In this document: positions 1,873 to 55,943 of the stretch, in pieces
Numbering within the stretch: the first letter of the stretch is position 1
Layout: every line of letters begins with the position of its first letter
NCBI RefSeq assembly: GCF_026241755.1
Contig: NZ_JAPJDA010000002.1
Span: forward strand, 62,001 to 126,000
Source: Salinimicrobium profundisediminis
GTDB taxonomy: Bacteria > Bacteroidota > Bacteroidia > Flavobacteriales > Flavobacteriaceae
Length of the DNA: 64,000 bases
Direction of reading: 5' to 3'
The notes under the pieces: generated by a model
Seen by the model: only the letters and a program-made list of their open reading frames with translations
What the model was told of the DNA's origin: nothing
The model's database searches: none
Translations under genes and position numbers: made by a program

Positions 1873-2514
1873 ATGAGGGAGCGTATACCCCGGGTGATAA
1901 AACTTCTGTATCCAAAAAGGATATGGGATGTTGCCACCTGGGAGAAAAGCCTTTACCTCAGCTTTGATGACGGCCCTATTCCTGAAATTACGCCCTGGGT
2001 TTTAGACCAGCTTAAAAAATACAATGCCCGCGCGAGTTTTTTCTGTATTGGTGACAATGTTCGCAAACATCCCGATATTTTCAGGATGGTGGTTGAGCAA
2101 GGCCATACGGTTGGAAACCACACCCACAATCATTTGAATGGCTGGAGAACTTCTGTCGCAACCTATCTTGAAAATGTGCGGCAGGCACAGGAGGTGATAG
2201 AAAAAGAACTTCCGCAGAGAACAGGTCTCAAAAATGCCATTTTTCGCCCCCCGTATGGGAAGATCAGAAATGTGCAGGCCAAAAAGCTTCAGCAGGAAGG
2301 TTACAGCGTTGTGATGTGGAGCATTGTGAGTATGGATTATGACCAGCGGCTCTCTTCAGAAAAAGTCCTTCAGAATGTACTTAAAAATGCCGTGCCCGGA
2401 AGCATTATCGTCTTCCACGACAGCATAAAGGCCGAAAAAAACCTGAAAGCAGTCTTACCACAGGTGCTGGAACATTTTCAGAAGCAGGGCTACTCCTTTA
2501 AAGCGCTGAAATAA
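1873..2514 (+). CDS. Polysaccharide deacetylase (NodB homology domain)
   Basis: This 213-residue protein is little more than a NodB domain. Motif 1 is LYLSFDDGP near residue 30, the zinc motif is GNHTHNH near residue 80, motif 3 is FRPPYGK near residue 120, and the C-terminal motif IIVFHDS is near residue 180. Family members remove N- or O-acetyl groups from chitin-like, peptidoglycan or capsule sugars using a metal bound by Asp-His-His. No signal peptide is evident: the N-terminus MRERIPRVIKLLYPKRI is basic and amphipathic, so the protein is cytoplasmic or loosely membrane-bound. It lies 18 bases after the DUF2723 gene, so a joint role in surface glycan or glycoprotein modification is plausible but inferred. 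The exact substrate cannot be read from the sequence. Confidence 0.9.
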   Translation: MRERIPRVIKLLYPKRIWDVATWEKSLYLSFDDGPIPEITPWVLDQLKKYNARASFFCIGDNVRKHPDIFRMVVEQGHTVGNHTHNHLNGWRTSVATYLENVRQAQEVIEKELPQRTGLKNAIFRPPYGKIRNVQAKKLQQEGYSVVMWSIVSMDYDQRLSSEKVLQNVLKNAVPGSIIVFHDSIKAEKNLKAVLPQVLEHFQKQGYSFKALK

Positions 2515-2574
2515 AGAATAATACGCTAATATTTTTCAGAATCAGGTTTGTTTTTAGATTATATTTATCTAAAA

Positions 2575-3783
2575 ATGAGCAGCATGAAAAAAGTTACCCT
2601 TTTTCCCCTTTTACACCGGAACGAATGGCAGATAGGTATAAAATTCCCTTTTGATCAGGAAATAAAAACCAAATTACAGAAGCTTGACGTTGTGAAATGG
2701 ACCCGCACGCACAGTTGCTTTTACAGCCTTTACACGCCAGACAATAAACAGCTGCTTTACAACAAACTGCGCGAGGGCAAAATATTTGTTGATTACAGCG
2801 AACTTCAAAATTTTAAGCTGCCGGCAAAGGAAGCCAAACAACCACAACCTGTATTGGAATTCAGCCCCGCCCAGAAGAAGATCATGCATGAATACGTGAA
2901 TTACCTAAGAGGTCAGCGCCTTAGTGAAAGCAGTGTGCGCACCTATTATAGTTTTGTACTGAAGTTTGTACACTACGTTGGAGACAGGCAGGTTTCAGAA
3001 TTAAGAAAACGGGATATTGAGCTCTTTGTAGAGCAGTACATTGCAGCCGAAAATTATGCCCTTAGCACCCACAGGCAGTGGATAAGTGCCCTAAAACACT
3101 TTTTACAGCTTTACGACACTGAACATATTGATGTCAACAAAATCAAGCGACCTTCTAAAAGCAGGTATTTACCGGTGGTGCTCTCCAGCCAGGAGATCAT
3201 GAAGCTGCTGCAAGCCACCAGGAACCTGAAACACCGCGCCATTTTGGCCATGATCTACTCGGGCGGACTTCGCATTGGAGAGCTGCTCAATCTAAAGCTG
3301 GCTCATATAGATATTCACAGGCGGCAAATTTTTGTAAAGAATTCGAAAGGTCGTAAAGACAGGATGGTGGTGCTTGCCGAAAGTATGTTGCCATTGCTGA
3401 AGAACTACCTTAGCACCTATGTGCCTCGTGTGTTTTTTGCTGAAGGCCTTTACGGCGGAGCTTACAGCCCACAAAGTATAAGAACATTTCTTGCCGACTC
3501 CTGCCGCCGTGCCGGGATCAAAAAAAGGGTTACCCCACATACCCTAAGGCACTCCTATGCAACACATATGCTGGAGAACGGCGTAGACATACGTTACATA
3601 CAGGAGCTACTGGGGCACTCCAAACCCGAAACTACCATGATCTACACCCATGTCTCCCGAAAAGATATCCTGAAAATTGAGAGCCCCTTAGACGTGATGG
3701 TCAAGCAAATCTACAAATCTGACTTAGAAGAAGACCACCTGTTACTGCCACCACAGCATATTGCTGATAAACAGCTATATTAA
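2575..3783 (+). CDS. Tyrosine recombinase/integrase, XerD/IntI-like
   Basis: A 402-residue protein counted from ATG 2575; another ATG lies at 2584, and a TTG at 2548 would only add residues lacking family features. Residues 1-95 form an N-terminal domain (PLLHRNEWQIGIKF, KWTRTHSCFYSLYTP) typical of Bacteroidota integrases. A SAM-like core-binding domain follows (LRGQRLSESSVRTYYSF), then the catalytic domain. The catalytic set is complete: R233 (GGLRIGELL), K258 (NSKGRKDR), H322 and R325 (TPHTLRHSYATHML), H348 (LLGHSK) and nucleophile Y357 (TMIYTHVS). The end IYTHVSRKDILKIESPLD resembles the IntI C-terminus (IYTHVL...SPLD) more than XerC/D, but the IntI-specific insertion between K and HxxR is absent. 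It stands at the left edge of a toxin/defence-like island with attC-like hairpins, so cassette or site-specific recombination is a plausible role. Confidence 0.9.
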   Translation: MSSMKKVTLFPLLHRNEWQIGIKFPFDQEIKTKLQKLDVVKWTRTHSCFYSLYTPDNKQLLYNKLREGKIFVDYSELQNFKLPAKEAKQPQPVLEFSPAQKKIMHEYVNYLRGQRLSESSVRTYYSFVLKFVHYVGDRQVSELRKRDIELFVEQYIAAENYALSTHRQWISALKHFLQLYDTEHIDVNKIKRPSKSRYLPVVLSSQEIMKLLQATRNLKHRAILAMIYSGGLRIGELLNLKLAHIDIHRRQIFVKNSKGRKDRMVVLAESMLPLLKNYLSTYVPRVFFAEGLYGGAYSPQSIRTFLADSCRRAGIKKRVTPHTLRHSYATHMLENGVDIRYIQELLGHSKPETTMIYTHVSRKDILKIESPLDVMVKQIYKSDLEEDHLLLPPQHIADKQLY

Positions 3784-3856
3784 TGGGGATAAACATATTG
3801 AGCGTAATTATTCAGAAAAATTCTGCTCCATTCTTAAGATATACGTATATTTTAAT

Positions 3857-3864
3857 TAATTTTG
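3857..3864 (+). promoter_or_regulatory. Bacteroidota -7 element upstream of the VapBC-type module
   Basis: The octamer TAATTTTG matches the TAnnTTTG element of Bacteroidota sigma-A promoters and lies 20 bases before the start codon of the antitoxin gene. No convincing -33 TTG is visible. Transcription would begin only about 10 bases upstream of the ATG, giving a very short leader. Confidence 0.4.
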
Positions 3865-3883
3865 CACGTATAATTATTTTGTT

Positions 3884-4132
3884 ATGGATACAAAGCTGAC
3901 ATTAAAACTTAACCAGGAAATAATCGAACGAGCGAAAAAATATGCTTCAGATAATAAAATGAGCTTATCAAGAATTGTAGAAGCATATTTACAATCGTTG
4001 ACAACCGACAAGAAAAATTCAGATTTTGAAATTTCTCCTTTCATTAAAAGTCTGGCTACTGGAACAAAAATTCCGATCAATTTAGATTATAAAAAAGAAT
4101 ACACAGATTCATTATGGGAGAAATATAAATAA
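3884..4132 (+). CDS. Antitoxin, DUF6364/VapB-like ribbon-helix-helix protein
   Basis: An 82-residue protein. Its N-terminus MDTKLTLKLNQEIIERAKKY followed by ASDNKMSLSRIVEAYLQSL has the beta strand plus two helices of a ribbon-helix-helix DNA-binding domain and matches the DUF6364 family, which accompanies PIN toxins. The C-terminal part (PFIKSLATGTKIP...) is probably the segment that binds and blocks the toxin. The stop codon directly abuts the ATG of the PIN gene, a usual VapBC arrangement, and the antitoxin is expected to repress the shared promoter. Assignment as antitoxin rests on the RHH pattern and gene order. Confidence 0.85.
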   Translation: MDTKLTLKLNQEIIERAKKYASDNKMSLSRIVEAYLQSLTTDKKNSDFEISPFIKSLATGTKIPINLDYKKEYTDSLWEKYK

Positions 4133-4555
4133 ATGAAAAAGAGATTATTTCTAGATACAAACGTTATCCTTGATTTACTTGGAGAACGGGATCCTTTCTA
4201 TGACTCAATTGCTAAAGTAGCTTCACTAGCTGACAAAGAAGAACTAACCTTACTTGTTTCCCCAATTTCATTTGCTACACTAAATTATTTTATTTCAAAA
4301 TTTGAGTCTGCAAAAATTGCTCAGGAGAAACTGAGAAAATTTAAAATCATATGTGAAATCTGCAAACTGGATGCACACATTATCGAAAAAGGACTGAACT
4401 CTGATTTTAAAGATTTTGAAGATACTTTACAATATTTCAGTGCTACAGATTCCAATTGTGATATTATAATCACTAGAAATGGAAAAGATTTCAAAAAGTC
4501 TTTGTTACCTGTTATGAGTGCAGATGAATATTTGCAGAGTATAAAACCAAAATAA
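4133..4555 (+). CDS. PIN-domain ribonuclease toxin (VapC-like)
   Basis: A 140-residue protein with the PIN-domain opening RLFLDTNVILDLLGERDPF; D8 is the first metal-binding acidic residue and a second acidic cluster follows near DFKDFEDTLQYFSATDSNCD. The end DIIITRNGKDFKKSLLPVMSADEYL matches the conserved PIN C-terminus (TRN.KDF). PIN toxins are Mg2+-dependent RNases that cleave tRNA, rRNA or mRNA; the target here is unknown. It immediately follows the RHH antitoxin with no intergenic base. An attC-like hairpin begins 5 bases after its stop codon, so the two-gene unit looks like a mobile cassette. Confidence 0.9.
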   Translation: MKKRLFLDTNVILDLLGERDPFYDSIAKVASLADKEELTLLVSPISFATLNYFISKFESAKIAQEKLRKFKIICEICKLDAHIIEKGLNSDFKDFEDTLQYFSATDSNCDIIITRNGKDFKKSLLPVMSADEYLQSIKPK

Positions 4556-4559
4556 CTCC

Positions 4560-4693
4560 GCCTAATTTCGGTTATAGCAAATAGCGGGTTTTGCCGAGAA
4601 AGTGTAATTTAGAAAACCAAGAAACAAAAGGTTAAGCCGACAACTGCGCGTCCCTATTCCCGCTACTTGTCAATAACCGTAACAATTATGAGC
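4560..4693 (+). other. attC-like long imperfect hairpin A, downstream of the VapC-type gene
   Basis: The left arm at 4569-4588 (CGGTTATAGCAAATAGCGGG) is almost the reverse complement of the right arm at 4659-4679, differing by one extra base and two or three mismatches around a 70-base central region. The outer boxes GCCTAAT (4560-4566) and ATTATGAGC (4685-4693) can also pair in part and resemble the RYYYAAC and GTTRRRY boxes of integron attC sites. The arm begins 13 bases after the stop codon. The same design, spacing and motifs recur at 8690-8816. Identity as a recombination site is inference. Confidence 0.5.
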
Positions 4694-4809
4694 AATTGCC
4701 AGCCATCACTATAACGGCACTCGGGGGACAAAACCACGATCATTATAAATTAAAGATGAAACAATTAGAACTAAATGAAAGAAACATTGCTGGCTTAACC
4801 TTTATCGAT

Positions 4810-6168
4810 ATGTCTTCAGTAAAATTACTTTTGTTACTCACGCTTTTCTGCTGCAGCAGCATCTCTTCTTCCCAAACGCTGCACGGGGTAATAAAAGATT
4901 TTGACACCAAAAAACCCCTAAGTGATGTGCATATTACCTCTTCAGCCATTACAAATATTACAATTTCTGGAGAAGAAGGCGAATTCATATTAGTACTAAA
5001 GGAGTTGGTTTCACCAACAGATTCTATTTCCTTCTCCTATATAGGCTACACAACTCTTGCTATGAGTCTGAAGGAATTAGGAAGATCCGGTAATGAAATT
5101 TTCCTTAGGCCTGAAGTGGACCAACTATCTGAGGTGAACCTGGATTCGAAGAGACTGCTCAGCAAGACCTTGAAGTTTTCTGAGATAGCTTCACTAAAAA
5201 AAGGAGTTAATTCTTTTGGTTCAATAGACCTAGGAAACAAGATTTACGTCATAGCAGGGGATGCTTCAGTTGTTGAGGAACCAATCAAAGAAGCAATGGC
5301 GACGACCTTAGGGGAGCCAACTCTTTCTGACATCATGAGCATATCGCGAGCAAATTTCTCGATGCCTGAATATTCGGAGGATGTACAGGTCTACAATGAG
5401 TTAACGGATGAATGGACAATTTCTCCCATCAAAGTAAGTAAGAGAGCCGGTCATAATGCAGTGCTACATAAAAATAAAATTTATGTGCTTGGCGGCAAAC
5501 ATCTTAATCACTCCGGCCAAAAGGTCCTACTTTCTACAACGATCGAAGTTATTGATTTACAGAAGGACACATTACTAGTGGACCGTGTTTATCCTCATCA
5601 AGCTTCAGGCGCCGCTGTGGTCATTCATGGGAATGATCTACTGGTATTAGGTGGCTCCACCCGCTTAAACAGCAGGAGAAAAAAGATCTTTACTGATGAA
5701 GTTCATCTTTTTAATTTTCTGACGGGACTTTGGTTTGAAGCAGGAAAATTACCCGAAAGAAAGGAAATTAAAGCTGTTAATATTCAAGGTAAAATTTTCA
5801 TCATCGGTGGGAGTGATGGAAGCGTTCCTAACAGCATCGAATCGTTAGATCTAACTACAGGTAAATATAAAACTGAAGCTAAGTTGCAGTATGGTTTTAA
5901 TAATCCGGGGGTGGTTTCTAACGGGAATATAATTTATGTATATGAAAGTGGAAAATTTCATACCATTGATGTAGAAAAGAGAGAGATGAGAACCTATAGG
6001 ATTGATCTTCAGGTTGAAGAACCGAATCTTCATATTTTGAATCACAAATTATTCGTTATAGGCGGATATAAAGAGCAACTTTATACGAAAACTCCAATTA
6101 CTATGTGCTACAAGATAGCTCTAGAGGAGTTCAATAAAACTAAGGTTAAAGAAAATGTTTTTTTCTAG
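4810..6168 (+). CDS. Exported Kelch-repeat protein with N-terminal CarboxypepD_reg-like domain
   Basis: The start is placed at ATG 4810 because it gives a clean signal peptide (MSSVKLLLLLTLFCCSSISS, then SQTLHG), leaving 452 residues. Residues about 21-105 form a carboxypeptidase-regulatory-like beta-sandwich (TLHGVIKDFDTKKPLSDVHI, SFSYIGYTTL), common at the N-terminus of Bacteroidota outer-membrane proteins. The rest contains Kelch-type blades, seen as repeated NKIYVLGGK, NDLLVLGGS, GKIFIIGGSDGS and HKLFVIGGY. Kelch propellers bind proteins or sugars, but no catalytic residues are visible and the ligand is unknown. No T9SS C-terminal sorting domain is apparent. It stands alone between the attC-like hairpin and another outer-membrane protein gene. 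Upstream in-frame start candidates lie partly in the hairpin and are unlikely. Confidence 0.75.
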   Translation: MSSVKLLLLLTLFCCSSISSSQTLHGVIKDFDTKKPLSDVHITSSAITNITISGEEGEFILVLKELVSPTDSISFSYIGYTTLAMSLKELGRSGNEIFLRPEVDQLSEVNLDSKRLLSKTLKFSEIASLKKGVNSFGSIDLGNKIYVIAGDASVVEEPIKEAMATTLGEPTLSDIMSISRANFSMPEYSEDVQVYNELTDEWTISPIKVSKRAGHNAVLHKNKIYVLGGKHLNHSGQKVLLSTTIEVIDLQKDTLLVDRVYPHQASGAAVVIHGNDLLVLGGSTRLNSRRKKIFTDEVHLFNFLTGLWFEAGKLPERKEIKAVNIQGKIFIIGGSDGSVPNSIESLDLTTGKYKTEAKLQYGFNNPGVVSNGNIIYVYESGKFHTIDVEKREMRTYRIDLQVEEPNLHILNHKLFVIGGYKEQLYTKTPITMCYKIALEEFNKTKVKENVFF

Positions 6169-6309
6169 TAATTGGTTTCGATAAAAAAAAGAATTCACCA
6201 CAAAATGAAAAGATACTTCAGTTCTAAAGTATGGTGATCAAAACTTCAAGCTGCACCTTTTAAAGGGTCAGAATCTAGTGTAAAGGATGTGCCTTTAACT
6301 TTGTAAAAT

Positions 6310-6921
6310 ATGTGCCTTAACAAACATTACATATTAGTGTTAATTCTCACTTTTTTCCTAAGCAGTTTTACTTTCGCTCAAGGATTAAATGATCAGGAAA
6401 AAAACAGATCTGCCAATAAGATTGAAATCAGTTTCAAACCACAATTTTCGGCCATTATGGTCCCTTTTGAAGATTATCCAGCCAGCAGAAACCCTGATTA
6501 TGAGATAGGCAGTAACTCACGAATATATGGCCTGGAAATTTCAGCTACCTTAAATTACAAATCTATAATTGGTATTGGAGCAGGAATTGGTTCAGAAAAC
6601 CTTTTACTGGAAAATGAAAATATAGAATACCTACCTGTATTTTTAGAGGTTACTCCTTTCCCCGCAGCCAATCCTAAAAAAGGTTTCGCTTCATTTTCTG
6701 GTAGAGTCGGGACACACCTGGGGGATCTTGATAAAAAAGGTATTTATTTAAGAGCAGATTTAGGTTATTACATTCCTTTGATAGATCATATTACTCTTTA
6801 TTTTAAAGTCTTATTTACACATCAAACCCTGTATAAAAGTTTCCCTGATATTGAGAGGCTCTCAAACAAGTATTCATTTAATGGAATAGGTTTCGGATTT
6901 GGTTTAGAATTTTATCTGTGA
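6310..6921 (+). CDS. Exported protein, probable small outer-membrane beta-barrel, function unknown
   Basis: A 203-residue protein with a strong signal peptide (MCLNKHYILVLILTFFLSSF, then TFAQG). The mature part alternates polar and hydrophobic residues with many Gly and aromatic residues (GLEISATLNYKSIIGIGAGI, GIYLRADLGYYIPL, HITLYFKVLF) and ends GIGFGFGLEFYL with a terminal aromatic pattern typical of outer-membrane barrels. I recognise no specific family. It is 141 bases downstream of the Kelch gene; the gap carries no obvious promoter. A barrel of about eight strands is the best reading of the length; it could also be a lipocalin-like periplasmic protein. Confidence 0.65.
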   Translation: MCLNKHYILVLILTFFLSSFTFAQGLNDQEKNRSANKIEISFKPQFSAIMVPFEDYPASRNPDYEIGSNSRIYGLEISATLNYKSIIGIGAGIGSENLLLENENIEYLPVFLEVTPFPAANPKKGFASFSGRVGTHLGDLDKKGIYLRADLGYYIPLIDHITLYFKVLFTHQTLYKSFPDIERLSNKYSFNGIGFGFGLEFYL

Positions 6922-6943
6922 AAGCCTGGGCTTCCAAAACTAA

Positions 6944-7025
6944 ATAACTCCACCTATAGAATACCCTCCAAAAATGTCATTTTTGACTACCTTTAAATCA
7001 AATCTGTAGCTGATTATTTGAGTTT
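6944..7025 (+). repeat. Direct repeat copy 1 (about 82 bp) before the mntA-hepT block
   Basis: From about 6944 to 7025 the sequence nearly repeats at 8823-8907: both contain CTCCACCTATAGAATACC, then the palindrome CAAAAATGTCATTTTTG (6969-6985), then GACTACYTTTAAA, and end GCTGATTATTTGAGTTT or one base longer. The two copies face the same way and bracket the MntA-HepT genes and the 7800 gene. A shorter related stretch, ATTACCTCCTATAGACAC, lies at 7071-7088. Confidence 0.75.
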
Positions 7026-7030
7026 AAAGC

Positions 7031-7093
7031 CCCCATCCTGTGTTATGGGGAAGTATGGTGTAAAGTTTCTATTACCTCCTATAGACACTTTAC
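7031..7093 (+). promoter_or_regulatory. Two stem-loops upstream of the MntA-type gene
   Basis: The first hairpin is CCCCAT (7031-7036) with ATGGGG (7045-7050). The second pairs GTAAAGTTTCTAT (7060-7072) with ATAGACACTTTAC (7081-7093), matching at 12 of 13 positions. Together they sit 32 bases before the start codon of the nucleotidyltransferase gene. They could be an operator for autoregulation, a terminator for the gene upstream, or part of the repeat element just before them. Confidence 0.4.
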
Positions 7094-7124
7094 TTCCCAA
7101 TATTAAATTGATTATCTTAGTCTT

Positions 7125-7460
7125 ATGAGAATTAAGGAGAGTATTCGAGCAAGGTTTTCAGACTTTACCACATTGTGCAGGTCATACAATGTGAAAACCC
7201 TGTATGCCTTCGGATCAGCTACTACAGATGAGTTTGATGAGAATAGCAGTGATATTGATTTACTCATTGAAATTGAAGAAAATGACCCTTTAGAAAGAGG
7301 AGAAAAATTACTGGCCATTTGGGATAAACTGGAAGAATTCTTTCAGAGGAAAGTTGATTTACTAACTCAGAATTCTGTAAAGAACCCCGTATTGAAAAAA
7401 AATATAGATGCCACAAAAGTGCTAATCTATGACGGACAAAAGCAAAAAATATCTGTCTGA
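7125..7460 (+). CDS. mntA: MntA-like nucleotidyltransferase antitoxin
   Basis: A 111-residue minimal nucleotidyltransferase. The motif lies at residues 29-45: FGS (G30, S31), eleven residues, then D43-I-D45, followed by LLIEIEE; this is the GS...DxD pattern, one residue longer than the usual ten-residue gap. MntA-type antitoxins AMPylate a tyrosine in the partner HEPN toxin and so silence it. Its 3' end overlaps the next gene by 32 bases, as is common for MNT/HEPN pairs. The segment DKLEEFFQRKVDLLTQNSVKNPVLKKNI is the typical C-terminal part of the family. Antitoxin function is inferred from family and context. Confidence 0.85.
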   Translation: MRIKESIRARFSDFTTLCRSYNVKTLYAFGSATTDEFDENSSDIDLLIEIEENDPLERGEKLLAIWDKLEEFFQRKVDLLTQNSVKNPVLKKNIDATKVLIYDGQKQKISV

Positions 7461-7761
7461 CATAATGATGGCTATTGACTTGGTTCAAAATTTCATAGCC
7501 GACACCCCTAATTTCGATTCTTACCAGAGTGACTTCAAGACCCAAAGTGCCGTAGAAAGACAGCTGGCAATAATAGGTGAAGCACTTAATAAACTCAGAC
7601 AATTGGAATCGGACCTCTCAATTAAAAATGACAAACAAATCATTGGATTAAGGAACAGACTGATACACGGTTATGATAGTCTTGACAATTCAATACTGTG
7701 GGTAATCATAAGAAGACACCTACCTGAATTAAAAAAAGAAATCCAGAATCTTTCCAACTAA
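7429..7761 (+). CDS. hepT: HepT-like HEPN ribonuclease toxin (DUF86)
   Basis: A 110-residue all-helical protein with the HEPN catalytic motif RNRLIHGY: R75-x4-H80 and Y82, matching the Rx4HxY signature of HepT, in which the tyrosine is the residue AMPylated by MntA. The N-terminus KKYLSDIMMAIDLVQNFI and the middle SAVERQLAIIGEALNKLR are characteristic of DUF86. The start overlaps the MntA gene by 32 bases; other in-frame starts would lose the first helix. HEPN toxins are RNases acting on tRNA or other RNA. The next gene, 38 bases downstream, encodes an unrelated Rossmann-like protein and may be part of the same cassette. Confidence 0.88.
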   Translation: MTDKSKKYLSDIMMAIDLVQNFIADTPNFDSYQSDFKTQSAVERQLAIIGEALNKLRQLESDLSIKNDKQIIGLRNRLIHGYDSLDNSILWVIIRRHLPELKKEIQNLSN

Positions 7762-7799
7762 AAAGAACAGTTGGGCATAATTTTAAAGAATAATCGAAT

Positions 7800-8684
7800 A
7801 TGCAACAGACTGAAAAAAATTGTTTTATAATCACTCCAATTGGAAATAATGATTCCCAAACCAGAAGAAATACTGATGGATTAATAAATACAGTTTTAAG
7901 ACCCTTATTAGAAAAAGATTTTAATTTTCAAACAATTGTTGCTGCGCATGAAATAAATGCATCAGGTTCAATAAATAATCAAATAATGAAAAAGATTATT
8001 TATGATGATCTTGTTATTGCAAACTTAACTGGGGTTAATCCTAATGTAATGTACGAAGTCGCTGTAAGACATGCTACAAGAAAACCTATCATCCATATTT
8101 GCGAAGAAGGAACTAAATTACCATTTGATATAATTGATCAGAGAACGATTTTCTATAAAAATGATATGCTGGGCGTAAAAGAATTAAAAACAGCATTAAC
8201 TTCAATGATAAAGGAGGCTTTAAAAGAAAAGCAATCTTCAGATAATCCAATATATAACGCTACTCAAAGTAAGATATTTATAGATTCAATTGCAGATAAA
8301 CCAGAGAAAAATTTTGAAAAGTATTTATTAGAAAGATTTGAAAGCTTGGAAACAAGAATAATGTCATTAAAATCCGCACAACGAGATTTCTCTACAATTC
8401 ATAGTGAACCATTCGTTATCCGACTTACATCGAAGGAAAAACTCGACGAAGGTCTTTTTTATACAGAACTCAAATCAAACCTTCAAAACGAAAAAAGCAA
8501 ATTATCTTACTTCAATATCAACAATATAGAAAAGATCAAATCGGAATATCAAACTGTAATTAATATAGTTCTTGAAAATGAGGTTTTTGTCCCAACCAGA
8601 GAAGAAATTATTAATTCTTTAAAAAATATTAGATTTAATAATCTAGAAAGTTTTCAAGTAGAAGGAAATGATGTTCCGTTTTAA
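7800..8684 (+). CDS. Nucleoside 2-deoxyribosyltransferase/TIR-like protein with C-terminal extension, putative defence effector
   Basis: A 294-residue protein. Residues 1-120 have a recurrent prokaryotic pattern: NCFIITPIG at the start, RRNTDGLINTVLRPLL, DDLVIANLTGVNPNVMYEVA, RKPIIHICEEG and LPFDIIDQRTIFY. This resembles nucleoside 2-deoxyribosyltransferase and TIR-like Rossmann folds; E in NPNVMYEVAVRHA is in the place of a catalytic glutamate. Residues 150-294 are charged and partly helical (KNFEKYLLERFESLETRIMS) and unknown to me. Such proteins are often found near antiphage and toxin systems, where they could hydrolyse NAD+ or nucleotides; that is inference. The gene is very A+T-rich, follows the MntA-HepT pair by 38 bases, and is itself followed by an attC-like hairpin and a direct repeat. 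Confidence 0.6.
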   Translation: MQQTEKNCFIITPIGNNDSQTRRNTDGLINTVLRPLLEKDFNFQTIVAAHEINASGSINNQIMKKIIYDDLVIANLTGVNPNVMYEVAVRHATRKPIIHICEEGTKLPFDIIDQRTIFYKNDMLGVKELKTALTSMIKEALKEKQSSDNPIYNATQSKIFIDSIADKPEKNFEKYLLERFESLETRIMSLKSAQRDFSTIHSEPFVIRLTSKEKLDEGLFYTELKSNLQNEKSKLSYFNINNIEKIKSEYQTVINIVLENEVFVPTREEIINSLKNIRFNNLESFQVEGNDVPF

Positions 8685-8689
8685 AATAC

Positions 8690-8816
8690 GCCAAAATCGG
8701 TTAACACAAATGCGGCAGACCAGACAGAAATAGCATTTTTGGATACCTTTAAAAACAGTAATTAAAAGATCAATTTCGTGCCCCAATCCGCACTTGTGTT
8801 ATTCGGGACGTTATCA
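8690..8816 (+). other. attC-like long imperfect hairpin B, downstream of the 7800 gene
   Basis: The left arm CGGTTAACACAAATGCGG (8698-8715) pairs with CCGCACTTGTGTTATTCGG (8788-8806); the inner 14 bases match except for one A/G difference, at the same place as in hairpin A. The central region is 72 bases (70 in hairpin A). Outer boxes are GCCAAAA (8690-8696) and GTTATCA (8810-8816). The arm starts 13 bases after the stop codon, exactly as in hairpin A. The shared left flank CGCCnAAnnTCGGTTA supports common origin. Function as a recombination site is inference. Confidence 0.5.
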
Positions 8817-8822
8817 TAACTG

Positions 8823-8907
8823 AATACCTCCACCTATAGAATACCTCCCAAAAATGTCATTTTTGACTACTTTTAAAATTACATCTACAGCTGATTTATT
8901 TGAGTTT
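8823..8907 (+). repeat. Direct repeat copy 2 (about 84 bp) after the attC-like hairpin B
   Basis: This is the second copy of the repeat at 6944-7025, in the same orientation and starting within ten bases of the end of hairpin B. It contains CTCCACCTATAGAATACC, the palindrome CAAAAATGTCATTTTTG (8849-8865) and the end CTGATTTATTTGAGTTT. Copies differ by a few substitutions and small indels. From 8908 to 9030 I see no gene and no clear signal. Confidence 0.75.
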
Positions 8908-9030
8908 CCCAGGCCGCAACTTACTTGATATATGAGACTAAGTACAGCTTTAAAAAGATGAAAACTGCAAAAAATAATTAACAAAATGAATTTTTTGCAG
9001 ACATATAGTACAAACGTCTAGACTAAAATT

Positions 9031-9510
9031 ATGAAAGACTGGAATTTTCAAGTGAATACTAGTCCTGAAGAGATTAGCAAAAAGTTAGAATCTTCCCTTG
9101 GTGACAGGAATAGATTTGTTTTCAAAACAAGTCGTGAAAAAATAGATTCAATAAAATTTAAAATACGCAAAAGGCTTCTCCTGGCATTTGAAGTAAATGT
9201 TCAGAATAACATTATTGTCAATGGCAGAATATTAAGAAGGGAGCCTAACACCGCAACCAACGTAAAAATTTCCTTTACCCACCACCCCTTAGCAAAATTG
9301 TTGATGTATGGCCATGTAATTCTGGGGTTGGGTTTGTTAGCCGGAATAATTTTCGAAATCAATAGAAGTTCCTATGCATATCTGGTGGTAGGGATATTGT
9401 TGATAACAGGAATTCTTACAGGGATGCATTTAAAAAGCAACTTCAATAAGAATGTTGAGGACTATAAAAAACTCATTGGGGAAATTCTGGAACCAAAAAC
9501 CCTGAAATAG
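9031..9510 (+). CDS. Small membrane protein of unknown function (two transmembrane segments)
   Basis: A 159-residue protein. Residues 1-90 are soluble and mixed alpha/beta (WNFQVNTSPEEISKKLESSL, AFEVNVQNNIIVNGRILRRE). Two hydrophobic segments follow: LLMYGHVILGLGLLAGIIF and YAYLVVGILLITGILTGMHL. A short charged tail ends the protein. This N-terminal soluble domain plus hairpin anchor is seen in many Bacteroidota hypothetical proteins; I do not recognise a family. It has its own upstream gap and no partner gene. The ATG at 9031 is the only start giving the complete N-terminal helix-strand unit. Confidence 0.6.
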   Translation: MKDWNFQVNTSPEEISKKLESSLGDRNRFVFKTSREKIDSIKFKIRKRLLLAFEVNVQNNIIVNGRILRREPNTATNVKISFTHHPLAKLLMYGHVILGLGLLAGIIFEINRSSYAYLVVGILLITGILTGMHLKSNFNKNVEDYKKLIGEILEPKTLK

Positions 9511-9621
9511 TTATTTTGAAGATGTGCTGCAAAACTTTCAGCATCGAGATTGGGCAGCTTCTGAAATTCTCTAAACTCTTTACTTTAAAATATTATTTTA
9601 GCCTTATTAATTACTAATTCA

Positions 9622-10893
9622 ATGCGATTTTTTCATCTTTCTCTTAAAATGGTCAAAAATTTATATCACTACCTTGCCCTCGTATTTGTATTACTATTGT
9701 CATCCTGCCAAAAAGACGATACCCCAAAAACTGATTACTCTATTGAATCCAACAAATATTTTGAGCTTATTAGTCAGCACGAAAATGGCTGGATAAAAGA
9801 GGCACGCTACGGTAGCGATGAACCTACAAAAGAATATGAGTACTATGAAAATGGTTTTATAAAATCAGCAAAAATATACTCTGGCATCCCCAACCATCAT
9901 CTATATATGGAAGTAAGCCGCAGTGAGGACAACAAACCACTTTGGTCTAAATATTATAACCCTGACGGGAGCCTATGGTTTGAAACCATTTATGAAAATG
10001 GACAGCCGTTAACCAAGAAGGTTTTTAGTGAAGATGGCACAACTATTTACAACTATAATGACGGCGGAGATCTCATTTCGGTCAATTTTACCTCGAGCGA
10101 CAATTTAAGCTCCAGCGAGATGGTTTTCAATTCAGCTTCAGAAGAACGAACTCTCACCGTCATTAAGAACGGAAAAACCCTTCTGCAACAGCATCTCCCT
10201 TATCAGGAAAAGTTTGGATCTGGAATGAACACAAATACTTATATGCCTCTGGGTAATCCATTCGGTATTTCTGAAACTTCTTACATTGACAAAAATGAAT
10301 CTTTATCTCAAAGCCCCGTCTGGCAGTTCAGTGTAAATCCGCTGGAATATATGTACCCTTACCGCTTATTCGACGGATTCTTTTACAATAATTACCGGCC
10401 GCAAGCCGGGATCAGCCTTGCCATTACCGATGAGCTTTACCAGTCGATCATTGAACAATACCCGGTGACCGAAGATGTTGTTCTCGTAGGCGGCGTGAAA
10501 TACCCGCATGGCTACGATAACTTTACTGCTGTAGGTAAGGTGGGAGATTCGCTTAAAGACGCATGGGAAGAAAACAAAGAGGTGTTTGAGCTTAAGTATG
10601 GCAACCAGTATGTTTCTAAAGTGGGTTATGGAAAGACTTACATAATTGTTGGAGCTATCAGGAATCTGCCTACCCATAGTAATGCAGCCAATGACATTAA
10701 GGAGTTGGCCCGTCTACAAATGCAGCACATCATCTACGATCATGAAAGCTTAAATCCCCAGGAGCAAAGAATGCTGGGTAAAGTATGGTTCGAAATAAAG
10801 TTCTTCTCAACTTTAAAGGAGCATAGAAATGGAATTCCTTTAAATTCTTATGAAAATTATCTTGACGCTGTGCAGCAAGTGGAGAATGCCTAA
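9622..10893 (+). CDS. Lipoprotein with YD/MORN-variant-like repeats, function unknown
   Basis: A 423-residue protein with a type II signal peptide ending LVFVLLLSSCQKDD; the lipid-carrying Cys is at residue 29 (or 20 if the ATG at 9649 is used). Residues about 50-150 contain short beta repeats of the form YYENGFIKSAKIY, YNPDGSLWFETIYENGQPL and FSEDGTTIYNYNDGGDLISV, like the antitoxin YwqK/MORN-variant type repeats. The C-terminal half (VVLVGGVKYPHGYDNFTAVG, KYGNQYVSKVGYGKTYIIVG) resembles the mixed domain seen in surface or cholesterol-dependent-cytolysin-like proteins, but I cannot assign it. It is probably anchored in the outer membrane. A monocistronic unit. Confidence 0.6.
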   Translation: MRFFHLSLKMVKNLYHYLALVFVLLLSSCQKDDTPKTDYSIESNKYFELISQHENGWIKEARYGSDEPTKEYEYYENGFIKSAKIYSGIPNHHLYMEVSRSEDNKPLWSKYYNPDGSLWFETIYENGQPLTKKVFSEDGTTIYNYNDGGDLISVNFTSSDNLSSSEMVFNSASEERTLTVIKNGKTLLQQHLPYQEKFGSGMNTNTYMPLGNPFGISETSYIDKNESLSQSPVWQFSVNPLEYMYPYRLFDGFFYNNYRPQAGISLAITDELYQSIIEQYPVTEDVVLVGGVKYPHGYDNFTAVGKVGDSLKDAWEENKEVFELKYGNQYVSKVGYGKTYIIVGAIRNLPTHSNAANDIKELARLQMQHIIYDHESLNPQEQRMLGKVWFEIKFFSTLKEHRNGIPLNSYENYLDAVQQVENA

Positions 10894-11042
10894 CCATCAG
10901 TAATTCAGCTTTTATATAGCAGCTTCGAATATTTGTAGATGCAGACAATTTCAAAACTGAATTCTAGAATAAAGAAACCGGGAAACTCTCTGCCAGTAAC
11001 AGCATATTATAACTAGAAGTACCACATTTAAAACCATCAAAA

Positions 11043-11243
11043 GTGAACAAATTAACCAGAACCAGAACGCTACTACTCATTTCTGCAGGAATATTTATCA
11101 TCGCAATCGCCCAACTGGTGAGCCACTTTATAAATATTTCTGAAAAATACGATTTCGCAATCGGCCTTATTGAAGGCTTAGGTTTGGGACTCATGGTGAT
11201 TGCTTTAATAAAAGGAAGTTTCAGGAAAAAACTTTCTCACTGA
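11043..11243 (+). CDS. Small two-helix membrane protein, function unknown
   Basis: A 66-residue protein starting with GTG. A basic N-terminus (NKLTRTRT) is followed by hydrophobic segment LLLISAGIFIIAIAQLVSHF, a short linker, and a second, less hydrophobic segment DFAIGLIEGLGLGLMVIALI ending in basic FRKKLSH. The regular charge distribution suggests a real inner-membrane hairpin with both ends in the cytoplasm. No family is recognised. The GTG start and small size lower the confidence. No terminator is visible after it, and about 200 bases of apparently empty sequence precede the PLP enzyme. Confidence 0.5.
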   Translation: MNKLTRTRTLLLISAGIFIIAIAQLVSHFINISEKYDFAIGLIEGLGLGLMVIALIKGSFRKKLSH

Positions 11244-11451
11244 TTTTAAGCCGATACAAAGCATCGAAGTCAGTACATCAACAATGCATAATTTTCCTTC
11301 TGAAAAAGCCCTGTATTTTTTTTAAAATGAAATGCAGATAGTGGAGACTGTCTTCATCCTGGCCCGGGAACAGGAGTAACAATTCTGCATCATCTCTTTT
11401 GTAATAAGTCCAATTCGGTCTATCTTGCAGGTCCATTTGAAAGTAAAGACC

Positions 11452-55755: not shown

Positions 55756-55852
55756 CTAAATGATCAGCGGGAAAAAATTATAATCATTGGCAATTAATTC
55801 CACGTTAAAAGCCAAAAGCCTGAAAGCCAAAATCATTTTCGGGAAGACCTCC

Positions 55853-55869
55853 CAAAAATGCCATTTTTG
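55853..55869 (+). repeat. Copy of the dispersed CAAAAATGnCATTTTTG palindrome upstream of aspS
   Basis: A perfect 17-base palindrome, CAAAAATGCCATTTTTG, within the longer context ACCTCCCAAAAATG...TTTTTGGCACCTCTTTAAAT, which closely matches the cores of the direct repeats at 6944 and 8823. Other copies or close relatives are at 13408, 29166 and 52552. Confidence 0.75.
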
Positions 55870-55943
55870 GCACCTCTTTAAATTTAGATTCAAATTTTCT
55901 CGATTACTTTTTCCAATCTTCTTTCAATCCCGTGAGTTCTTCT

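Follow-up and report, generated by a model that had tools for sequence, protein, structure and literature searches.

A 64,000-nt stretch of the Salinimicrobium profundisediminis genome (contig NZ_JAPJDA010000002.1, positions 62,001 to 126,000; hereafter the window) contains a tyrosine recombinase gene followed by toxin-antitoxin and defence-like genes and by long imperfect hairpins. We conclude, with a probability of about 0.92, that a sedentary chromosomal integron of a Bacteroidota lineage has its integrase end here. Judged from the sequences, the lineage is marked by an attI-integrase-array anatomy, by G^TT boundaries, by strand asymmetry of its attC sites, by exchange of cassettes between species, and by an integrase that has no IntI-specific domain. 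A sequence-only reading of the window had proposed an integron-like cassette system; such systems are intact in relatives, but the window's own array has decayed.

In the proposed mechanism, the recombinase would bind double-stranded attI directly behind its own gene as well as the folded bottom strand of attC, the probable substrate, and would catalyze the cassette reaction, in which circular one-gene cassettes are inserted or excised by a cut at G^TT. Arrays would grow at attI and extend in the direction of the integrase gene. An N-terminal domain, perhaps HARP-like, may replace the missing IntI domain in hairpin recognition. Decay has affected attI and most of the attC sites of the window, while intact systems, some with dozens of cassettes, persist in relatives.

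Messier and Roy are said to have found in 2001, going by their title, that the IntI-specific domain is necessary for integron recombination. The available parts of two other texts describe it likewise (PMC9668308, PMC8138268), and in one of them the standard integron finder uses the domain as its marker (PMC9668308). One published survey, in the part available, records a single complete Bacteroidetes integron, in Salinibacter (PMC9024848). No system like the present one is described in the available portions of the open literature, including PMC9024848, PMC8138268, PMC9668308, PMC8618304, PMC8352920 and PMC8946536, a coverage that takes in neither subscription journals nor preprints. A lineage without the IntI domain would reveal another way to recognize single-stranded attC and would make the purpose of that domain directly testable. 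It would also add a large platform of gene exchange, with the recombinase present in 126 of 199 sampled Flavobacteriaceae genomes, against the one known Bacteroidetes integron; the cargo of the arrays includes toxin-antitoxin and phage-defence-like genes.

Cassette ends and cassette exchange

Because a circular integron cassette carries its whole attC, the start of a unit must complement the R'' end of its own attC. Across 162 units, 5.99 of the 7 variable start and end bases were complementary, compared to 2.94 after shuffling (sd 0.10, maximum 3.31 of 5000), whereas the two sides across one hairpin were complementary at 2.96 of 7 positions only. The complementarity of unit ends is as recombination at G^TT would demand. 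In a test for chains of units that uses no hairpin model, eight of 17 stretches had chains of 28, 20, 20, 20, 16, 13, 13 and 13 units, and 20 shuffled controls had at most 5, with a maximum of 3 set against the chain of 28; in two further stretches (L073, L118) and in the window, the chain did not rise above that of the stretch's own shuffles. The units are organized as tandem cassettes. Among the 219 of 242 units that are up to 1.5 kb long, the longest frame was in sense in 176 and in antisense in 18, and the other 25 had no frame of at least 50 aa (unit counts leave out the window and L062).

Cassettes are shared between species as well. We found 27 pairs of the same cassette in different species, with the gene part more than 90% covered and at least 80% identical. 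The left ends of the shared segment lay at the junction in 16 pairs and, in 11, at the distal edge of the attC before it (-112 to -132). The right ends lay within 14 nt of the junction in 13 pairs, 29-34 nt beyond it in three, and at the near edge of the cassette's own attC in 11 (-82 to -122), so that these 11 pairs have the gene in common but not the attC. Within the 150 nt of flank compared, no pair was conserved beyond the neighbouring attC. Breakpoints, for which a comparison of strains had been proposed, were seen between species, at the edges of attC. In L075:10554 versus L069:9530 and in ten more pairs, the gene is up to 98% identical and the attC is of a different type, as if the attC had been exchanged.

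The attC sites and their strand asymmetry

A core motif with a gap yielded 48 matches in nine of 40 genomes of the order, all from the window's genus (nine of its 12 genomes), and a control pattern yielded none. Many of these matches stood in rows on the same strand, a few hundred bases apart. With a covariance model built from 32 attC sites of relatives, the island of the window gave four sites and the genome it comes from 18; 22 of the 40 genomes had matches. Sites behind the recombinase extend over more than 30 kb in one relative (G005) and about 50 kb in another (G024). The search by covariance model that had been proposed did recover gene-plus-hairpin arrays directly behind the recombinase in relatives. 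Nor was a scatter of hairpins encountered; in G009, the nearest relative, assembled as one contig, all of the matches listed fall within 2920490-2947281 or beside the integrase, clustered in arrays.

The sites contain R''/R' and L''/L' boxes with a spacer, the G^TT, and a foldable strand, with the bottom strand favoured, as integron attC sites do. At 23 tested pairs of the site alignment, 93.8% of the cells were paired, compared to 89.2% in shuffles (0 of 500 as high) and 21-37% when the alignment was slid; cells changed on both sides numbered 37, compared to 18.7 in shuffles. A further alignment retained the best 150 of 177 matches. Antisense twins of the palindromic sites were removed, which brought one set from 227 to 187 and left 310 sites in another. 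No Rfam family exceeded its threshold in the three stretches searched (L061, L069, L075).

The top strand has conserved A.C mismatches, and the bottom strand has G.T pairs at the same positions. The bottom strand was more stable in all eight sites folded with controls and in 272 of the 290 distinct sites in which both boxes were found (mean difference 3.3 kcal/mol; 17 sites showed the reverse). Gene stretches used as a control were biased in the opposite direction (71 of 242), and hence this control is not neutral. Use of the bottom strand is a known property of attC according to the part of PMC8946536 available. Two attC subfamilies, with GCGG...CCGC and ATAAAAACAATGC...GCACTGTTTTTAT arms, are mixed in the same arrays (L066, L071, L075, L222).

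attI and the link between recombinase and arrays

In 15 loci of relatives, a GTT lying 30-303 nt past the stop codon of the recombinase gene marks a sequence that complements the first attC in its R'' box (8-10 of 10 positions, mean 9.5), whereas 210 mismatched pairs of loci averaged 6.8 of 10 (p 6e-12). The bases before the junction are conserved, as ...ATATAACnA^GTT or ...ATAAACnA^GTT in one branch and as another motif in the second, and those after it are variable. The set examined comprised these 15 loci, in each of which the first site was plausible, together with G009 and the window, in both of which attI has decayed; L143, L144, L146, L163 and others were excluded.

Arrays and recombinase also go together in position and in occurrence. 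The model gave 30 matches in 80 recombinase-centred loci, and 29 of them are downstream of the recombinase and on its strand, in 11 loci that include Zunongwangia, Algibacter, Winogradskyella, Algoriphagus and Seonamhaeicola. Zunongwangia mangrovi (L133) and Algibacter onchidii (L137) are examples of environmental relatives whose array is intact. Among the 199 Flavobacteriaceae genomes, with the recombinase scored as present at E up to 1e-40, 86 have both recombinase and sites and 55 have neither, compared to 40 with the recombinase alone and 18 with sites alone (odds ratio 6.6, p 2.5e-9).

The recombinase and its N-terminal domain

The integrase reading frame of the window is intact, and its product matched PF00589 and a SAM-like domain by profile search. 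Residues R229, K254, H318, R321, H344 and Y353, which are conserved in its alignment and which we take from family knowledge to be the catalytic residues, are all kept. Against NCBIfam, the protein scored 222.3 bits with the XerA/integron integrase family NF040815 (cut-off 220), whose name covers "site-specific tyrosine recombinase/integron integrase". It scored 195 bits with IntI, below the cut-off of 265 and with the match split in two, and 184 and 174 bits with XerD and XerC, far below cut-offs of about 330. The closest solved sequences and folds to its catalytic part are the XerA/Xer recombinases 5hxy and 4a8e (fold comparison of the whole integrase model covered residues 93-364).

The IntI-specific additional domain is absent from the Bacteroidota integrases. 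Between two conserved motifs there are 57-63 residues in 61 relatives (two of them, L156 and L166, from outside Bacteroidota) and 62-66 in XerC/D, compared to 100 in all 17 IntI (thinned from 32; two rows were omitted). In a tree of 103 proteins, XerC/D stood apart (100/100), IntI formed one clade (100/100) that also contained L185 and L210, and 54 Bacteroidota integrases formed another (83/89). The best tree placed archaeal XerA-like proteins and one Firmicutes protein with IntI (96/80 and 99/86). The earlier suggestions that the recombinase is nearer to integron integrases than to XerC/D and that it lacks the IntI insertion are both upheld: it groups with IntI and the archaeal XerA-like proteins but not inside the IntI clade, and the missing insertion is a trait of the whole family. 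That its gene points the same way as the cassettes, listed as an unclassical feature, was likewise confirmed and proved to be the rule in the Bacteroidota lineage.

The N-terminal domain (residues 1-78) is predicted to fold as b-b-a-b-b-a-b, with a predicted local distance difference test (pLDDT) score of about 91. It may be HARP-like. HARP binds branched DNA. PF07443 (HARP, as in SMARCAL1) matched two of 35 N-terminal domains, with a best E of 5.8e-7, and L134 at 0.0012; in the 35-domain set, the L023 row was cut from the wrong end and matched Phage_integrase. Among the 199 genomes, PF07443 matched five times with an E of no more than 0.01 and never above the cut-off; two of the five matches, including the best, lie inside array-type recombinases. 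A family profile searched against solved structures placed HARP 4o66 first, but at a weak E of 0.62, and the window protein's own N-terminal domain gave no PF07443 match. The enzyme of L115 has no N-terminal domain.

Weighing of the explanations

Several findings count against reading the locus as an integron end. The chain test in the window (2501-11400) gave a chain of 1, where shuffles reached 3, and a search for the attI start gave nothing at the expected place in the window and 6 of 10 positions in G009. Two of five covariation measures were not above shuffles. No model match was found in 69 of the 80 recombinase-centred loci, among them Mesonia with 10 kb downstream (many of the 69 are non-Bacteroidota or on short contigs), nor in eight of 20 stretches from other genera; 40 of the 126 recombinase-bearing genomes are without a site match, and in 18 genomes sites are present but the recombinase is not matched. 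The 27-kb array of G009 (C1:2920490-2947281; L063, L064) lies 0.93 Mb from the integrase, and its two stretches contain no recombinase match. In L115 and L117 the arrays diverge from the recombinase, as in classical integrons.

Two other accounts of the arrays can be set against these data. If the hairpins were dispersed palindromic repeats, of the repetitive extragenic palindromic (REP) or miniature inverted-repeat transposable element (MITE) kind, spread by a transposase and next to the recombinase by chance, then their well-conserved loop, the decayed loop-only copy at 55843 and the copies outside arrays would be expected. The ends of the 162 units, however, complement each other and not those of their neighbours, a conserved site behind the recombinase gene marks where the first unit begins, and 29 of the 30 matches lie downstream of that gene on its strand. 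We reject scattered repeats on the end complementarity and regard them as highly improbable. It is also improbable, if less so, that these are ordinary arrays served by a canonical IntI located elsewhere or in a past host, with the neighbouring recombinase engaged in, e.g., dimer resolution. Such an account would accommodate the G009 array without a nearby integrase and the 18 genomes with sites alone, and canonical IntI does exceed its cut-off in 46 of 148 genomes of the phylum. None of these is in the family, however: IntI (TIGR02249) was over the cut-off in none of the 12 genomes of the genus, by which we reject a canonical IntI hidden there, and in none of 14 other family genomes, and the genus matches listed skip TIGR02249 positions of about 180-239. 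Moreover, attI directly follows the recombinase gene in 15 loci, the two main branches of the recombinase differ in their attI, and separate XerC/D-like genes are present that branch apart. A sedentary integron run by the neighbouring recombinase remains the preferred reading.

The origin of the lineage is a different matter. We lean slightly towards integrons having arisen once, with the Bacteroidota integrases as one IntI-family branch in which the IntI-specific domain was lost or had never been acquired. The crossover at G^TT, the logic of the R boxes and the bottom-strand asymmetry of attC are shared, which fits this, and a single clade of IntI and the 54 integrases is not rejected by the approximately unbiased test (p-AU 0.227); the best tree, however, groups the archaeal XerA-like proteins and the Firmicutes protein with IntI and leaves the 54 separate. 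More tentatively, a XerA-like recombinase with a HARP-like N-terminal domain may recognize attC in a lineage without the IntI domain, which would be a second invention of integrons or an older form from before the insertion. The array-bearing L177 branches outside both IntI and the main clade of 54, a position that would fit an old common cassette function under a single origin and that also fits an older form ancestral to IntI. L177 (Bacteroidetes bacterium GWF2_41_31) encodes a 704-aa frame with a long N-terminal part and heads a five-unit array with attI.

The relic in the window

The array of the window is a relic, since most R-box bases have been lost from its sites and its chain is no better than shuffles; the toxin-antitoxin and TIR-type cargo is left stranded. 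At the attI place, intact relatives read ...GATATAACnA^GTT, and the window has lost the G of G^TT. Synteny with G009 (83%) ends at 3812, directly behind attI, and resumes at 11379; between the breakpoints there are 7.6 kb in the window versus 1.0 kb in G009.

Table 1. Features of the island in the window, in order of position.
Feature	Position	Strand	Evidence
Integrase (tyrosine recombinase, 398 aa)	2587..3783	+	N-terminal domain, core-binding and catalytic domains
Decayed attI, GGGATAAACATATT	3785..3799	+	Comparison with relatives
Cassette 1 relic: start 3797, vapBC-type pair, attC	3797..4699	+	End complementarity
Antitoxin-like gene (DUF6364)	3884..4132	+	Family match
PIN-domain toxin (VapC-type)	4133..4555	+	Family match
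attC relic 1	4554..4699	+	Covariance model, 60 bits, E 9e-12
Kelch-repeat protein; cargo or later insertion	4756..6168	+	Family match
Secreted or outer-membrane-like protein, without family match	6310..6921	+	
attC relic 2	6926..7068	+	Covariance model, 44 bits
MntA-like nucleotidyltransferase antitoxin	7125..7460	+	Family match; below NCBIfam cut-off
HepT-like toxin	7429..7761	+	Family match; below NCBIfam cut-off
Final cassette relic, with TIR-like gene and attC; junction near 7770	7770..8824	+	Weak
TIR-effector-like protein	7800..8684	+	PADLOC TIR effector, E 2.7e-11
attC 3, R' box ACGTTATC kept	8683..8824	+	Covariance model, 87 bits, E 2e-18
attC relic 4, loop part only	8839..8914	+	Covariance model, 50 bits

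The two hairpins noted in the sequence-only reading, behind the VapBC-type pair and the 7800 gene, start at the stop codons 4555 (vapC) and 8684 and share asymmetric arms, CAA-A-T(N)GCGG...CCGC(N)A-C-TTG. Folded alone they are no better than shuffles (z -0.5 and -0.9), and so the evidence for them is comparative; by their common arms and covariance-model scores they are attC, as that reading had it. Its view that the cargo is of the integron-cassette kind also stood, given the vapBC-type and MntA/HepT-type pairs and the TIR-effector-like gene. The presence of several genes between the hairpins, which had seemed to fit poorly, was observed again and may reflect an eroded site (6926-7068) and, on weak evidence, a lost one near 7770. 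The segments 6926-7068 and 8839-8914 correspond to the 63-nt repeat D1 and are decayed attC copies absent from the earlier list. In the first cassette relic, the start complements the end at 12 of 16 positions, the best place within 3600-4550; the junction near 7770 is weak, as 84 other places in the window score equally high. Far from the island, at 55843-55918, the attC model gives a weak match of 27 bits that covers the loop only.

Comparison with known systems

Sedentary chromosomal integrons, as in Vibrio and Xanthomonas, likewise have an integrase, attI, a long array made up of one-gene cassettes, foldable attC with a more stable bottom strand, G^TT crossover, toxin-antitoxin and defence cargo, and satellite clusters of sites without an integrase. 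Unlike theirs, the Bacteroidota integrase is without the IntI-specific domain and carries an additional N-terminal one, the sequences of its attI and attC are distinctive, and its gene mostly points towards the array. The reverse integrons of Spirochaetota share the reverse orientation of the integrase gene, as stated in the available part of PMC9668308, but their enzymes are IntI by domain and are thereby set apart. XerA/Xer enzymes resemble the catalytic part and are described as dimer resolvases in the part of PMC8138268 available; here, in contrast, the gene stands next to attI and cassette arrays, and the enzyme has an added N-terminal domain.

Other recombinases and sites

A second recombinase of the window's genome (G000:C40) was not counted as an integrase, because its neighbourhood looks IS91-like, although no search aimed at this was made. 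Cassette arrays were suspected but not supported behind plasmid-borne relatives of the recombinase in Chryseobacterium, Rufibacter and Persicobacter, where chains of 3, 1 and 2 units were within or near those of shuffles. On the Rufibacter tibetensis plasmid (L250:10264-15859), eight small co-directional genes without a cassette chain stand behind the recombinase relative, and seven of them are annotated as hypothetical or by family only. Each of 22 viral contigs (L227-L248) matches the core pattern of attC once.

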